Virus record (IMG/VR): IMGVR_UViG_3300031631_000035
Span: 1 to 20,488 of that record
Source: a virus
DNA length: 20,488 nucleotides
Direction: 5' to 3' (one strand)
The position numbers and the translations under genes were made by a program. The notes below the pieces were generated by a model. That model saw only the letters and a program-made list of their open reading frames with translations, was not told the DNA's origin and did not search any database. Below are positions 4,408-16,875 of the stretch, one piece after another. Position 1 is the first letter of the stretch, and each line of letters opens with the position of its first letter.

Positions 4408-6969
4408 ATGGCATTAGATATAAAATTACACCCCAAACAACTACTCGCACTTAATACTCCTGCAACAGAAGTGTTATATGGTGGAGCAGTAGGTGGGGGC
4501 AAGGCACTAGATGTAAACACTCCTATACTCACTACCTGCGGGTGGAAAACTATGGCATCACTTGTTGTAGGCGATAAAGTATTTGATGAACACGGACAAC
4601 CATGTAATGTAGTAGCGAAATCTAAAGTAGATAAAGTTAGTGCTACTTATGAAGTTGAATTTGATGGTATAAAAAGTAAGGTTATCGCATGTGACGGCAG
4701 ACATCAGTGGAGCACACTTTCACGCACAAATAGGTTAAATAGAGTTACTGAACACACCCCTAAAACTACGAATGAAATACGTCACAGTATAAAAGCAGAA
4801 CATGGAAAACGAAACAATCACACTATACAGGTAACAAAACCTGTACAGCTCGGAGAGAGAGTACTTGACATAGACCCTTACATTTTGGGAGCTTTTCTTG
4901 GTGGTGGGGTATATGCTCGTAAGGCAAAGAAAGGCATGGTCATTACAAGCAGGTGTGCGTCAACAACAACCAATTTAACCAAGTATAAAGATGGAAAATA
5001 TTATGATAAAGAGGATTGGAAAGCGTTACTAAAAAGTGTGGGGTTATATGGAGTAAAACCACGTGACCTTTTTATACCCATTGATTACCAGCTTGGTTCA
5101 ATAACACAACGCACAGACTTACTAAAAGGTATGTTAGATGTGCGGGGTACTGTTTACAGTGATAGTTATAGATATAAGCGATCAGCGGGTCAAGTAGAGA
5201 TGTATACCGATGGGCAACAATTGTGTAAGGATGTTCATTTCATGTTGTTGTCACTTGGGCAAAAGTCTTTGATGTATGCACGAGAGGATAGTAGACGCCC
5301 TACTTGTGCGTGGCGTGTACGTGTATTTGCTGATATGATATTATTCAACAGCAAAGACAAATCTATGCAACAGCGTAAAAGCATGGGTAGCCTTAGAACA
5401 GCTAGGCAACGCCACTACATTTCTGATGTACGCAAGGTAGAAAAACGTGCAATGCAATGTATACAGGTTGACAGTGATAGTAGTTGCTATCTTTCCGGTG
5501 AGTACCTTATTCCCACTCACAACAGTTATTTAATGCGTATAGCATCTATTGTGTGGGCTATGGAGGTACCGGGAATACAGATTTATTTGTTTAGGTTAAC
5601 TCAGAAAGAACTTGATGACAATCACATGGTAGGCAGTGGTGGATATTATACATTGCTTCTTGATGCAGTCCATTCCAAATATGTGAAGATAAACAGTTCA
5701 AAAAACATTATACAGTTTAGGAATGGAAAGCATAATGGGTTTATGGGCGGTTCTATAATTCATCTTTGTCATTGTCAGCACGAGGACGACAAGTATTTGT
5801 ACAAAGGTGCGGAGATGGATGTGTTGATGATTGATGAAGCCACGCACTTTACCCGTACAAAATATGAGTATTTGCGAACAAGGGTTAGACGCCCCAAAGA
5901 CAACCCATTGCCAGATGCAGTAATAAAAAAGTATGGAGCTAAATACTTTCCACGTATACTATTGGGAACAAATCCCGGAGGCATATCTCATAATTTCTGG
6001 CGTAGAGAATTTGTAAAAATAGCAGAACCCATGAGCATTGTGCAAATGCCAAATACTAAAGGTGGGATGTTGCGACAGTTCATACCCGCACAGTTATCTG
6101 ACAATCCTTCTATAGACAAAGAAGAGTATGAGGGCAAGGTAATGGGTGTTGGCAATGAAGCCACTGTTCGTATGTTGTTGGATGGTGATTGGGATGCAGT
6201 TGCAGGTGGAATGTTTGATGATGTATGGGATGCTGATGTACACATGATACCGCCATTTGAAATTCCCTTTTCATGGTATTGTGACCGTAGTTTTGATTGG
6301 GGCTACACAGACCCGTTTAGTGTTGGTTGGTGGGCTCAGTCGGATGGGAGTTCAGTAAAATTGGCTGACACAACAAAAGACGGTGTAGTAGTAAAAGGGG
6401 AAACCGTAGTATTCCCAAAAGGCACATTATTTCGTATAGCAGAATGGTATGGATGGACGGGTGAAGAAAATATTGGTATAGGGCTTACTGCGTATGAGAT
6501 TGGGCAAGGTATTAGTAAAATGGAAAGAACTAATGCAGTATTGAAAAACATTGAAAGAATAGTACCGGGGCCCGGCGACCATCAGGTATGGAATAGTAGT
6601 CCCAAGCAAGATTCTAGTTATAGGTCACTTATACACGAGTTAAACGCAGGGTATTATGGAAACGACAATTATATGTTGTTTGATATTTTTACTAAAGCTG
6701 ACCAAACAGCAGGTAGTCGTCCACGAGGTTGGGACATATTAAGGACTCACTTGAAAAATTCTGTAAATTATCCTAAAATAGATAGACCATGTTTATTTAT
6801 CTTTAATACGTGTGAAACACCTAATAGGATTATACCTACGTTAATTAGACATGACAAGAAGATTGAGGACATCGCAGACCATCAAGAAGACCACGTTGCT
6901 GATGAAATGCGTTATAGAATACAGCATGCAGTACATCAAACTAAAAGAATACCAACAAGGATGGGTTAA
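4408..6969 (+). CDS. terL: Terminase large subunit precursor with in-frame intein
   Basis: The 853-codon frame encodes a DNA-packaging motor interrupted by a 340-residue intein (residues 33-372); the ligated protein would be 513 residues. The ATPase half starts with a Q-motif-like His-Pro-Lys-Gln (8-11), a Walker A of GGAVGGGK (25-32) completed by Ser373 after splicing, and Walker B Leu-Met-Ile-Asp-Glu (473-477). A likely coupling motif is Gly-Thr-Asn-Pro-Gly near 520. The C-terminal RNase H-like nuclease has Asp630 in Asp-Trp-Gly-Tyr-Thr-Asp-Pro, Asp724 in Pro-Gly-Asp, and the typical final Asp-His-Val-Ala-Asp-Glu-Met-Arg-Tyr (Asp828, Asp832). It cuts concatemers and pumps DNA into the prohead through the portal encoded just downstream. 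Because the intein sits inside the P-loop, the unspliced precursor should have no ATPase activity. The SD is modest (AGGA before 4408). Confidence 0.93.
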   Translation: MALDIKLHPKQLLALNTPATEVLYGGAVGGGKALDVNTPILTTCGWKTMASLVVGDKVFDEHGQPCNVVAKSKVDKVSATYEVEFDGIKSKVIACDGRHQWSTLSRTNRLNRVTEHTPKTTNEIRHSIKAEHGKRNNHTIQVTKPVQLGERVLDIDPYILGAFLGGGVYARKAKKGMVITSRCASTTTNLTKYKDGKYYDKEDWKALLKSVGLYGVKPRDLFIPIDYQLGSITQRTDLLKGMLDVRGTVYSDSYRYKRSAGQVEMYTDGQQLCKDVHFMLLSLGQKSLMYAREDSRRPTCAWRVRVFADMILFNSKDKSMQQRKSMGSLRTARQRHYISDVRKVEKRAMQCIQVDSDSSCYLSGEYLIPTHNSYLMRIASIVWAMEVPGIQIYLFRLTQKELDDNHMVGSGGYYTLLLDAVHSKYVKINSSKNIIQFRNGKHNGFMGGSIIHLCHCQHEDDKYLYKGAEMDVLMIDEATHFTRTKYEYLRTRVRRPKDNPLPDAVIKKYGAKYFPRILLGTNPGGISHNFWRREFVKIAEPMSIVQMPNTKGGMLRQFIPAQLSDNPSIDKEEYEGKVMGVGNEATVRMLLDGDWDAVAGGMFDDVWDADVHMIPPFEIPFSWYCDRSFDWGYTDPFSVGWWAQSDGSSVKLADTTKDGVVVKGETVVFPKGTLFRIAEWYGWTGEENIGIGLTAYEIGQGISKMERTNAVLKNIERIVPGPGDHQVWNSSPKQDSSYRSLIHELNAGYYGNDNYMLFDIFTKADQTAGSRPRGWDILRTHLKNSVNYPKIDRPCLFIFNTCETPNRIIPTLIRHDKKIEDIADHQEDHVADEMRYRIQHAVHQTKRIPTRMG
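4504..5523 (+). mobile_element. Class 3 intein in TerL P-loop with degenerate LAGLIDADG endonuclease
   Basis: The intein runs from Ala33 to Asn372 of the precursor, inserted between Lys32 and Ser373 of the Walker A motif. Block A begins Ala-Leu-Asp-Val-Asn-Thr-Pro-Ile. The N-terminal nucleophile is Ala instead of Cys/Ser. Block B is Asp96-Gly-Arg-His99-Gln-Trp101, block F has Cys351 (Gln-Cys-Ile-Gln-Val-Asp) and block G ends Pro-Thr370-His371-Asn372. Trp101, Cys351 and Thr370 are the W-C-T triad that defines class 3 inteins, in which the block F Cys attacks the upstream splice junction directly. Between the splicing halves is a two-motif LAGLIDADG domain: Leu-Gly-Ala-Phe-Leu-Gly-Gly166-Gly and Leu-Leu-Lys-Gly-Met-Leu-Asp-Val-Arg246-Gly. 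The catalytic acids expected before the last Gly are Gly166 and Arg246, so DNA cleavage is probably lost while splicing residues are intact. Confidence 0.92.
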
Positions 6970-14466: not shown

Positions 14467-14483
14467 TTTGGAGGACAATTATG
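14467..14483 (+). promoter_or_regulatory. Strong ribosome binding site of the first tail tube gene
   Basis: GGAGGA (14470-14475) lies five bases before ATG 14481 within the context TTTGGAGGA...AATTATG, which nearly copies the capsid gene's site at 9560-9577. It fits the high output needed for a tube subunit. Confidence 0.7.
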
Positions 14484-15428
14484 AGTTTTAGTTCAGGGTC
14501 GCAAAGAGACCTATATTTTAAAAAAGAAGTTACATATGGAACAGTAGACCCTACCGCAGGTGGAACTGTCTACGCAGGATTTGAGGAAATACGTAACACA
14601 GAGGATTCAATCAGTTTAGTTAGAGATAACTTTGTATCTGATGAACGTAGAGGGGATAGAGGTATTCACGACATGAGGTTGGGAAACAGACAACCGGCAG
14701 GGGATATTGGATTTGAATTAAGTTATGATTCATTTAATGAATTTCTAGCAGGTGCATTTTGTAGTGCATGGGCAGGTGCAGGTAGTTTAATTTTAAAGAA
14801 GGGTACTACACTATCTTCATACTCAGTAGCTAAGGTATTTTCTGATTTGCCTGAGTATCAGTTATATACAGGTGGAGTAATCAATACCATGTCGTTGGAC
14901 ATCAATCCAAACGCAATGGTAACGGGTTCATTTGGTATGATTTTCAAAGGCATGACAAGTGGGAGCACAGCATATGTAACAAGTCCTACGGCAACAGGCA
15001 CAAATAGACCTTTTGATGGATTTACAGGGTTAATTACTGAAGGCACAGGAGCAGGGGTAACCATAGGGGTTGTTTCCGCCCTTAGTTTGAGTTTAGATAA
15101 TGGATTTGAACGAAACTTCGTATTGATGAACGATGAAAATCCACAGGTTACATGGGGAAAATCAAATGTAACAGGTAGCATGACATTGTACTTTGAAGAT
15201 ACAACCGAGTATGACAAATTTGTTGGGGAAACAGAATCAGGGTTAACCATAACCTTAGATGATTTAGAGGCAGGTGGAAACACATATATAATCAATCTTC
15301 CTCGTATCAAATATACGAGTGCTGATGCACCTGTAAACAGTGATGGTGCTACAATGATAACAATGAACTTCCAAGCACTTGATGATGTAACTGCGGAATC
15401 GAATATAGTTATCACGAAATCATCATAG
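14481..15428 (+). CDS. Tail tube protein 1 (compact paralog)
   Basis: The 315-residue product is a major tail tube subunit candidate. It shares long stretches with the next protein: the Ser-Ser-Gly-Ser-Gln-Arg-Asp-Leu start, the block Glu-Ile-Arg-Asn-Thr-Glu-Asp-Ser-Ile-Ser (35-45), Asp-Glu-Arg-Arg-Gly-Asp-Arg-Gly-Ile-His-Asp-Met-Arg (54-66), Tyr-Thr-Gly-Gly-Val followed by Met-Ser-Leu-Asp-Ile-Asn-Pro-Asn-Ala, and Tyr-Thr-Ser-Ala-Asp near the end. The arrangement, with a conserved N-terminal strand-loop, central Gly-Ser-Phe-Gly-Met and C-terminal Met-Asn-Phe-Gln-Ala-Leu-Asp, is typical of the phage tail tube fold that stacks as hexameric rings. Position between tail terminator and chaperones agrees. 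Ten residues (96-105) replace the large insertion of the second copy, so this version is the likely ancestral form and, by its stronger SD, the main subunit. Confidence 0.82.
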   Translation: MSFSSGSQRDLYFKKEVTYGTVDPTAGGTVYAGFEEIRNTEDSISLVRDNFVSDERRGDRGIHDMRLGNRQPAGDIGFELSYDSFNEFLAGAFCSAWAGAGSLILKKGTTLSSYSVAKVFSDLPEYQLYTGGVINTMSLDINPNAMVTGSFGMIFKGMTSGSTAYVTSPTATGTNRPFDGFTGLITEGTGAGVTIGVVSALSLSLDNGFERNFVLMNDENPQVTWGKSNVTGSMTLYFEDTTEYDKFVGETESGLTITLDDLEAGGNTYIINLPRIKYTSADAPVNSDGATMITMNFQALDDVTAESNIVITKSS

Positions 15429-15438
15429 GGGGTGAGTT

Positions 15439-16875
15439 ATGGGCGATTTTAGTTCAGGGTCACAAAGAGACCTTTTTTACACATTAGAAGACAGCTTTGG
15501 TTCAGGGCCTAGTGTTCTGAACATGGCTGAAATAAGAAATACTGAAGACTCCATTAGTTTAGTAAGAGACAATTTTGTTTCCGATGAACGCCGTGGTGAC
15601 AGAGGTATTCATGATATGAGGCTAGGCAATAAACAGCCTGCCGGAGATATGGGATTTGAATTAAGTTTTGATGAATATGACAGATTAATACCATTAGCAC
15701 TTTGCAGTGACTTGGCGGCAAATACGGTTATCACTACAGATATGACAGCCACTTATATAGATAAAGATACAGGTGTTATGACTTCAACAGGAGAAACATT
15801 TGTAGCAAAGGGATTTGAGGTAGGGGATAAAGTAGTTACAACGGGTTGGAGTGATGGCGGAAACAATGGTACATTTACTATAAATGCAGTTACTGAAGAA
15901 ACTATGACACTTTCACCTATTACAGGCTTAGTAACAGTGGCAGTAGGGGATGCAGAAGCAACAGTAGATTTAGCGGCATGGAGTCCTTGGACAGCACCTT
16001 ATACTGATTTATCGGTATCGGTAGTAGCAACAATAACGGTAAATACATTTGTACGTGCAGGTGGTAGTTGGATTACAGACGGAGTACGAGTTGGGGATGC
16101 AATAACAACTACAACTTTTGATGTTGAAGCAGGAAACAATTTAACTACTTATGTAACTGCTTTATCAGCATTGACTATGACGGTAGCAGGAGCACTTACT
16201 ACAGCTATTGCAGATGTAGGAGTATTTAACACAACTGCAAGAGAAATAAAGAAAGGAACAACGGTAAGAAGTCTAGTAGTGGAAAAGGCTTACACAGATA
16301 TAGCAGAGTATCAGAAATACACAGGTGGAGTTGTAAACACGATGTCGTTGGACATCAATCCAAATGCTATGGTAACAGGTTCTTTTGGAATGTTATTCAA
16401 AGATGCGGCAAACAGTACATCAGCGTATCACAGTGGAACACCTGTGGTAACGACCGCTAATAGACCTTTTGATGGGTTTAGTGGGTACATAAATGAAGCA
16501 AACGCCGCAAACGCATTAGCAAGTGGCATGAGCATTAGTTTAGACAACGGGTTTGAACGAAACTTTGTATTAATGGCAAATACTTGTCCTCAAATGACAA
16601 GTGGTAAATCAAATGTAACGGGGTCAATAACTTATTACTTTCCTGACCAAGTACTTTATAACAAGTTTGTTAATGAAACAGAATCTAGTCTTGAAGTAAG
16701 ATTTGTAGATGATGACTTAGAAGGATTTATTGTTACATTACCAAGAATAAAATACACCAGTGCTGATACCCCTGTCAATAGTGACGGAGCAGTTATTAAC
16801 ACAATGAATTTTCAAGCACTTGATGACTCAACAGAGGCTTCAAACATAATTATTAGGAGACAACCTGCGGTATAA
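15439..16875 (+). CDS. Tail tube protein 2 (paralog with an inserted tandem-repeat domain)
   Basis: The 478-residue product is a tandem duplicate of the preceding tube protein, alignable from residue 4 to about 90 and again from Lys271-Lys-Gly-Thr-Thr to the end. At DNA level a 23-base stretch encoding the Met-Ser-Leu-Asp-Ile-Asn region is identical (14889-14911 and 16342-16364). Between Cys89-Ser90 and Lys271 it holds about 180 residues where the first copy has 10. The gene has its own good SD (GGGGGTGAG before ATG 15439), so both proteins should be made. It may form decorated rings within the tube, a distinct segment near one end, or an alternative tube. The fold assignment is firm because of paralogy; the division of labour is inference. 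Confidence 0.8.
   Translation: MGDFSSGSQRDLFYTLEDSFGSGPSVLNMAEIRNTEDSISLVRDNFVSDERRGDRGIHDMRLGNKQPAGDMGFELSFDEYDRLIPLALCSDLAANTVITTDMTATYIDKDTGVMTSTGETFVAKGFEVGDKVVTTGWSDGGNNGTFTINAVTEETMTLSPITGLVTVAVGDAEATVDLAAWSPWTAPYTDLSVSVVATITVNTFVRAGGSWITDGVRVGDAITTTTFDVEAGNNLTTYVTALSALTMTVAGALTTAIADVGVFNTTAREIKKGTTVRSLVVEKAYTDIAEYQKYTGGVVNTMSLDINPNAMVTGSFGMLFKDAANSTSAYHSGTPVVTTANRPFDGFSGYINEANAANALASGMSISLDNGFERNFVLMANTCPQMTSGKSNVTGSITYYFPDQVLYNKFVNETESSLEVRFVDDDLEGFIVTLPRIKYTSADTPVNSDGAVINTMNFQALDDSTEASNIIIRRQPAV
15709..16248 (+). repeat. Insertion in tail tube 2: two related beta-rich repeats
   Basis: Relative to tail tube 1 this stretch encodes an additional domain pair. Unit one (residues about 100-178) contains Gly-Phe-Glu-Val-Gly-Asp-Lys-Val, then Asn-Asn-Gly-Thr-Phe-Thr-Ile-Asn-Ala-Val and Met-Thr-Leu. 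Unit two (about 195-262) contains Gly-Val-Arg-Val-Gly-Asp-Ala-Ile, Gly-Asn-Asn-Leu-Thr-Thr-Tyr-Val-Thr-Ala-Leu and Met-Thr-Val in the same order. The Val-Gly-Asp turn plus Asn-Asn and Met-Thr strand is the shared core. Such surface beta modules on tail tubes are usually exposed outside the tube and may touch the host surface. Confidence 0.65.

Follow-up and report, generated by a model that had tools for sequence, protein, structure and literature searches.

The stretch of DNA analysed here, referred to below as the window, is a virus record of 20,488 bases (IMGVR_UViG_3300031631_000035) that carries terL, the gene for the large terminase subunit TerL, as a single open reading frame of 853 amino acids at positions 4408-6969 of the + strand, on which all features of terL given below also lie. 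A gene for the terminase small subunit precedes terL, and genes for the portal, scaffold, and major capsid proteins follow it. An insert divides the reading frame into an N-extein of 32 amino acids (4408-4503, from the translation), which ends in GGAVGGGK and is 75-100% identical in the close relatives L001-L007, all of them intein-bearing, and a C-extein of 481 amino acids (5524-6969), which holds the remainder of the ATPase and the nuclease domain. The C-extein matches PHROG 979 (E 9.7e-27) and the large terminase folds 5oe9, 4znl, and 4dkw, and the phage terminase context given in the first-pass annotation is supported. A megablast search of the window against phages returned no match, and a search of genome contigs with a C-extein profile for a prophage carrying the clade described below gave best matches just 40-42% identical. 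Elsewhere in the window, the adjacent genes at 14481-15428 and 15439-16875 share a near-identical stretch (EIRNTEDSISLVRDNFVSDERRGDRGIHDMRLGN) and have similar C-terminal halves; a gene that probably encodes a virion protein has been duplicated here in tandem, and its second copy has an additional middle part.

The insert at 4504-5523 is 1020 nucleotides or 340 codons long, in frame, and without a stop codon, and lies between the Lys and the Ser of the TerL Walker A motif (GGAVGGGK^S). Its removal joins GGAVGGGK to SYLMR, giving a predicted ligated TerL of 513 amino acids (853-340). The precise cut between Lys and Ser had been proposed beforehand and is confirmed by 13 related TerLs from viral contigs (L009-L014, L019, L021-L023, L025, L028, L029) that are empty at exactly this site, residue 32 of the N-extein abutting residue 1 of the C-extein; both the K^S insertion and the empty homologues are as expected of a P-loop TerL intein. 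The insert begins with Ala, which leaves no nucleophile at position 1, as is characteristic of class 3 inteins. Block B reads D64-G-R-H67-Q-W69 (4693-4710; D96, H99, and W101 in precursor numbering) and thus contains the expected DxxH (D64/H67), block F supplies Cys319 (5458-5460; precursor Cys351), the class 3 nucleophile, and block G closes the intein with Thr338-His339-Asn340 (5515-5523; precursor Thr370 and Asn372), including the terminal H339-N340. The +1 residue is Ser (5524-5526; precursor Ser373) and doubles as the Walker A Ser of TerL. The first-pass annotation had called a class 3 intein at 4504-5523, and the residues that it named in precursor numbering (Trp101, Cys351, Thr370, Asn372, and Ser373) are all correct, as are their coordinates.

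In phmmer searches against the PDB, the intein matches the class 3 DnaB inteins 6rix, 6riy, and 6bs8 at E-values between 1.5e-13 (Mycobacterium DnaB, 6rix) and 2.9e-11 (6bs8), HQW, Cys, and THN aligning with their counterparts in the Mycobacterium class 3 DnaB inteins, a resemblance to class 3 inteins far beyond chance. A profile built from 42 relatives matches 6rix at E 1.2e-39. Residues W69, C319, and T338 align with those of 6rix and 6bs8 and of 66 other inteins, the Trp, Cys, and Thr being retained in every one of the 67 distinct class 3 inteins that were gathered. Family databases were less informative: the intein has no Pfam or NCBIfam match at E<=1, whereas relatives with intact endonuclease motifs match LAGLIDADG_3 and Hom_end, PHROGs match the intein mainly as terminase, and a search with the intein alone returned only L006. 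AlphaFold2 models the precursor with a mean pLDDT of 86.8 and the intein alone with a pLDDT of 92.4 and a pTM of 0.91. The predicted splicing domain superposes on 6bs8 (Z 21.3, 1.5 A, 125/125 residues) and on 6rix (Z 21.3, 1.9 A, 130/130 residues), so that the model has the HINT fold of class 3 inteins and the Trp, Cys, and Thr are not placed away from the active site, a placement that would have spoken against the assignment. On these sequence features and on the predicted fold, the assignment of the insert to class 3 is supported throughout. The mycobacterial DnaB-1 inteins of 6bs8 and 6rix share with the window intein the class 3 splicing domain, the WCT residues, and the P-loop K|S position, at 35-36% identity and at 1.5-1.9 A on the predicted model; however, they are mini-inteins without a homing endonuclease (HEN) and reside in DnaB, whereas the window intein has a HEN and resides in a terminase. 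The names of the two host proteins may be confused in some records: in the Escherichia phages FL04, FL15, and PTE-Eco09 (H58, H59, and H62), the class 3 intein matches are annotated as replicative helicase DnaB, sister records name the same gene terminase large subunit, and the DnaB name may have been carried over via the intein.

The insertion site is an ordinary one for class 3 inteins, since a P-loop Gly-Lys precedes and a Ser or Thr follows the insertion in 57 of the 66 distinct class 3 inteins whose flanks could be read and since the TerL1-a intein of mycobacteriophages is published at Lys|Thr of the TerL Walker A motif (PMC5050341). The GK^T site is also used in the T4-like phage ELT3, in mycobacteriophages, and in a Brevibacterium phage DnaB. 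TerL1-a (Kelley et al. 2016, PMC5050341) occupies the same slot, between the invariant Lys and the nucleophilic Ser or Thr of the TerL Walker A motif, but the window intein sits in another TerL family and has Ser at +1. Both the intein type and its Walker A location are therefore already known, and the window intein is another member. A different, distant class 3-like intein with intact GDG and DTDG motifs (L008:4894-6000; Gly1, D..H.W, Cys, THN) shares this Walker A position in a TerL that is 46% identical, which suggests that the site was occupied independently there.

The middle of the insert is taken up by a LAGLIDADG homing-endonuclease domain (4837-5403, intein residues ~112-300), which the first-pass annotation omitted and which is catalytically degenerate. 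Profile matches of this region are to PI-SceI and I-DmoI, and the intein model superposes on PI-SceI over 310 residues (Z 24.0, 3.5 A), the predicted model showing the two motif helices of the LAGLIDADG fold. Catalysis by PI-SceI uses D218, K301, and D326. As placed by profile alignment, the equivalents of all three are replaced in the window: motif C (YILGAFLGGG, 4879-4908) has Gly134 (4903-4905) in place of the catalytic Asp aligned with D218, motif E (LLKGMLDVRGT, 5119-5151) has Arg214 (5143-5145) in place of that aligned with D326, and Leu189 (5068-5070) stands at the position of K301. The acids that end the motifs of an active LAGLIDADG endonuclease are thus missing, and because the two metal-binding Asp residues and the Lys of the active site are all replaced, the window HEN would be expected no longer to cut DNA. 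An Asp or Asn in motif C together with an Asp in motif E is found in 60 of the 67 distinct class 3 inteins, and in 60 of the 61 outside a clade of six lineages formed by the window, L006, L007, L001, L002=L003, and L004=L005; these six and L138 make up the seven exceptions. Within the clade, the motif E acid is absent from every lineage, with R, R, R, A, V, and S respectively in its place, motif C has Gly in five of six, the Asp of L007 aligning only through a one-residue insertion, and the Lys at the K301 position is lost in three of six, against its retention in 36/36 class 3 inteins outside the clade. Both motif acids are likewise missing from the unrelated class 3 intein L138:3009-4013 (LGKG, DSGG), a loss independent of that in the clade. 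Among mycobacteriophages, mushipu and NelitzaMV (L197 and L198) carry near-identical class 3 TerL inteins, of which that of mushipu has an in-frame deletion within the HEN and DTNG where DTDG is expected, possibly a snapshot of recent HEN decay.

Comparison with characterised inteins places these losses in context. PI-SceI, the yeast VMA intein, has a similar overall two-domain architecture, but it is a class 1 intein, active at D218/D326, and has an extra DNA-recognition region, whereas the window intein is class 3 with its catalytic residues replaced. The two mycobacteriophage TerL inteins that were tested, at sites b and c, had active endonucleases (PMC5050341), whereas the window intein has lost the catalytic residues. 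PhoVMA, the VMA intein of Pyrococcus horikoshii (7qst; PMC8966425), likewise has a folded LAGLIDADG domain without either catalytic Asp. It is, however, a class 1 intein of an archaeal ATPase with one helix truncated, whereas the fold in the window is complete in the predicted model and the loss of the residues is common to a clade under constraint.

This constraint is most apparent between the window and its nearest relative L006, where dN/dS in the HEN region is 0.171 (95% bootstrap 0.105-0.270), compared with 0.154 in the splicing part, 0.145 in portal, 0.147 in major capsid, and 0.231 in scaffold. The HEN value lies near those of the structural genes, and the dead domain is therefore as constrained as they are, purifying selection resting mainly on this one close pair and a simple Nei-Gojobori count. 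When neutral evolution of the HEN was crudely simulated, the median amino acid identity was 0.69 at 15% nucleotide change, against 0.81 observed, which agrees with constraint and adds little beyond dN/dS. HEN identity between the window and L007 is 0.485 at a splicing-domain identity of 0.514, above >99% of pairs with intact motifs, and that between L006 and L007 is 0.50, nearly the splicing-domain level, although pairs in such comparisons are phylogenetically non-independent. L001, L002, and L004, in contrast, have a HEN identity of 0.358 at a splicing identity of 0.745, where intact-motif HENs average 0.628, and their HEN looks to be under relaxed constraint. By these sequence comparisons the clade appears divided, with the HEN constrained in the window, L006, and L007 and relaxing in the other three lineages. 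A stop, frameshift, or mini-intein is found in none of the six.

Inheritance of the intein was addressed by tree comparison and by synonymous divergence. The six lineages form a single group in the extein, splicing-domain, and HEN trees, and the extein and HEN trees agree in splitting the window, L006, and L007 from L001, L002, and L004; the splicing-domain tree, from 109 columns only, disagrees with the extein tree on the positions of L007 and L004. At fourfold sites, window and L006 differ at 18 of 63 in the HEN and 81 of 227 in the rest of TerL (p 0.37), for which reason gene conversion of the HEN, as could be read from its NG86 dS of 0.59 against 0.87-1.1, was rejected. As intein and extein divergence match and the trees agree, there is no sign of recent homing within the sampled clade, every sampled member of which has the intein. 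The intein thus looks to be inherited vertically with terL, non-homing and still constrained. L006 also carries a second, class 1-like intein in the same terL (L006:4954-6000; Cys1, ...LSGN|S), inserted at GGISH|S, with a Pfam Intein_splicing match (E 9e-13) and both LAGLIDADG acids present (LSEG, LGDG). It is absent from the window, where the corresponding point GGISH|N (5989-5994) is uninterrupted, and from all other close relatives, and looks to have arrived more recently; window and L006 form an intein-minus/plus pair at this point.

Following class 3 biochemistry (PMC7664689, PMC6195587), Cys319 would attack the Lys-Ala junction after translation, the N-extein would be transferred to the +1 Ser373, and Asn340 would cyclise, joining the P-loop and releasing the 513-residue TerL. 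Splicing is probably constitutive, because TerL is essential and the insertion destroys its ATP-binding loop. The nested LAGLIDADG domain would formerly have driven homing, with the intein now passing vertically with terL. Retention of the dead HEN is most likely due to a dependence of splicing on its fold, a HEN-HINT mutualism, and to the need for an exact deletion if the terminase is to stay functional. Taken as a whole, this account of class 3 splicing, a dead HEN, vertical passage, and retention through mutualism and the rarity of exact deletion is probably the right one. Splicing of TliVMA drops when its HEN is removed, but PhoVMA, with both Asp absent and its HEN degenerate, splices without its HEN, so that such dependence is no rule (PMC8966425).

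The HEN might instead have died in the ancestor of the clade and be drifting to loss without dependence or benefit, the intein remaining just because exact deletion is rare. The homing cycle is expected to pass through a stage with dead HENs (PMC8966425), and the low HEN identity among L001, L002, and L004 fits such drift; the window-L006 dN/dS with its low upper bound, the window-L007 HEN identity, and the uninterrupted frames of all six lineages argue against it, leaving plain decay a possible but doubtful explanation. The same purifying selection, together with the full predicted LAGLIDADG fold and the displaced Asp of L007, could be taken to mean that the HEN remains able to cut or nick DNA through a non-canonical centre and that the intein is still homing. 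This is very improbable given the absence of the metal-binding acids at both positions in five of six lineages and of the motif E acid in all, the loss of the K301 position in three, and the equal divergence of intein and extein in agreeing trees. It is also conceivable, if unlikely, that the dead HEN of the window, L006, and L007 has been repurposed as a non-cutting module that binds DNA or a partner, a reading that includes the replacement of the catalytic Asp by Arg214 and the conserved residues 212-236 that follow. Residues 217-236 are 70% conserved between window and L007, against a mean of 46% in intact-motif pairs (top 1%), which is a lead only because it was noticed post hoc. If true, maturation of TerL would be coupled through this module to some factor of the infected cell, and the window intein would be a domesticated, non-homing class 3 intein.

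The first-pass annotation further proposed that without splicing the motor cannot bind ATP and that splicing could therefore gate DNA packaging. The former is reasonable, because the insert divides the P-loop, whose residues 26-31 and 371-373 are among those modelled with low confidence in the precursor; the gate found no support. A conditional gate, in which splicing answers a signal such as zinc, oxidants, or infection stage and thereby sets when the ATPase is activated and DNA is packaged, would draw on the splitting of the ATP-binding motif, on the inhibition of a mycobacterial DnaB class 3 P-loop intein by zinc and H2O2 (PMC7360933, PMC6195587), and on the fixation of a vertical, non-homing intein in the sampled clade. 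The zinc ligands of MsmDnaBi1 are C118 and Y128 (PMC7360933); equivalents are present as C319 and, ten residues on, Y329, Tyr being common at that place, and by this analogy zinc inhibition of the window intein is possible. The redox partner Cys48 of MsmDnaBi1, however, is Thr48 in the window and its five relatives (6/6), splicing in reporter constructs was fast for five terminase inteins of mycobacteriophages (PMC5050341), and neither a regulatory element nor a conserved sensor was found, all of which makes such a gate unlikely.

The value of the window intein lies in a clean natural test of why inteins outlast the loss of homing, as the clade offers both states, the nuclease centre being lost throughout and the HEN being either constrained, as in the window, L006, and L007, or relaxing, as in L001, L002, and L004. 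Whether splicing depends on the HEN or the HEN is simply decaying could be told apart by comparing its deletion in these two subgroups.
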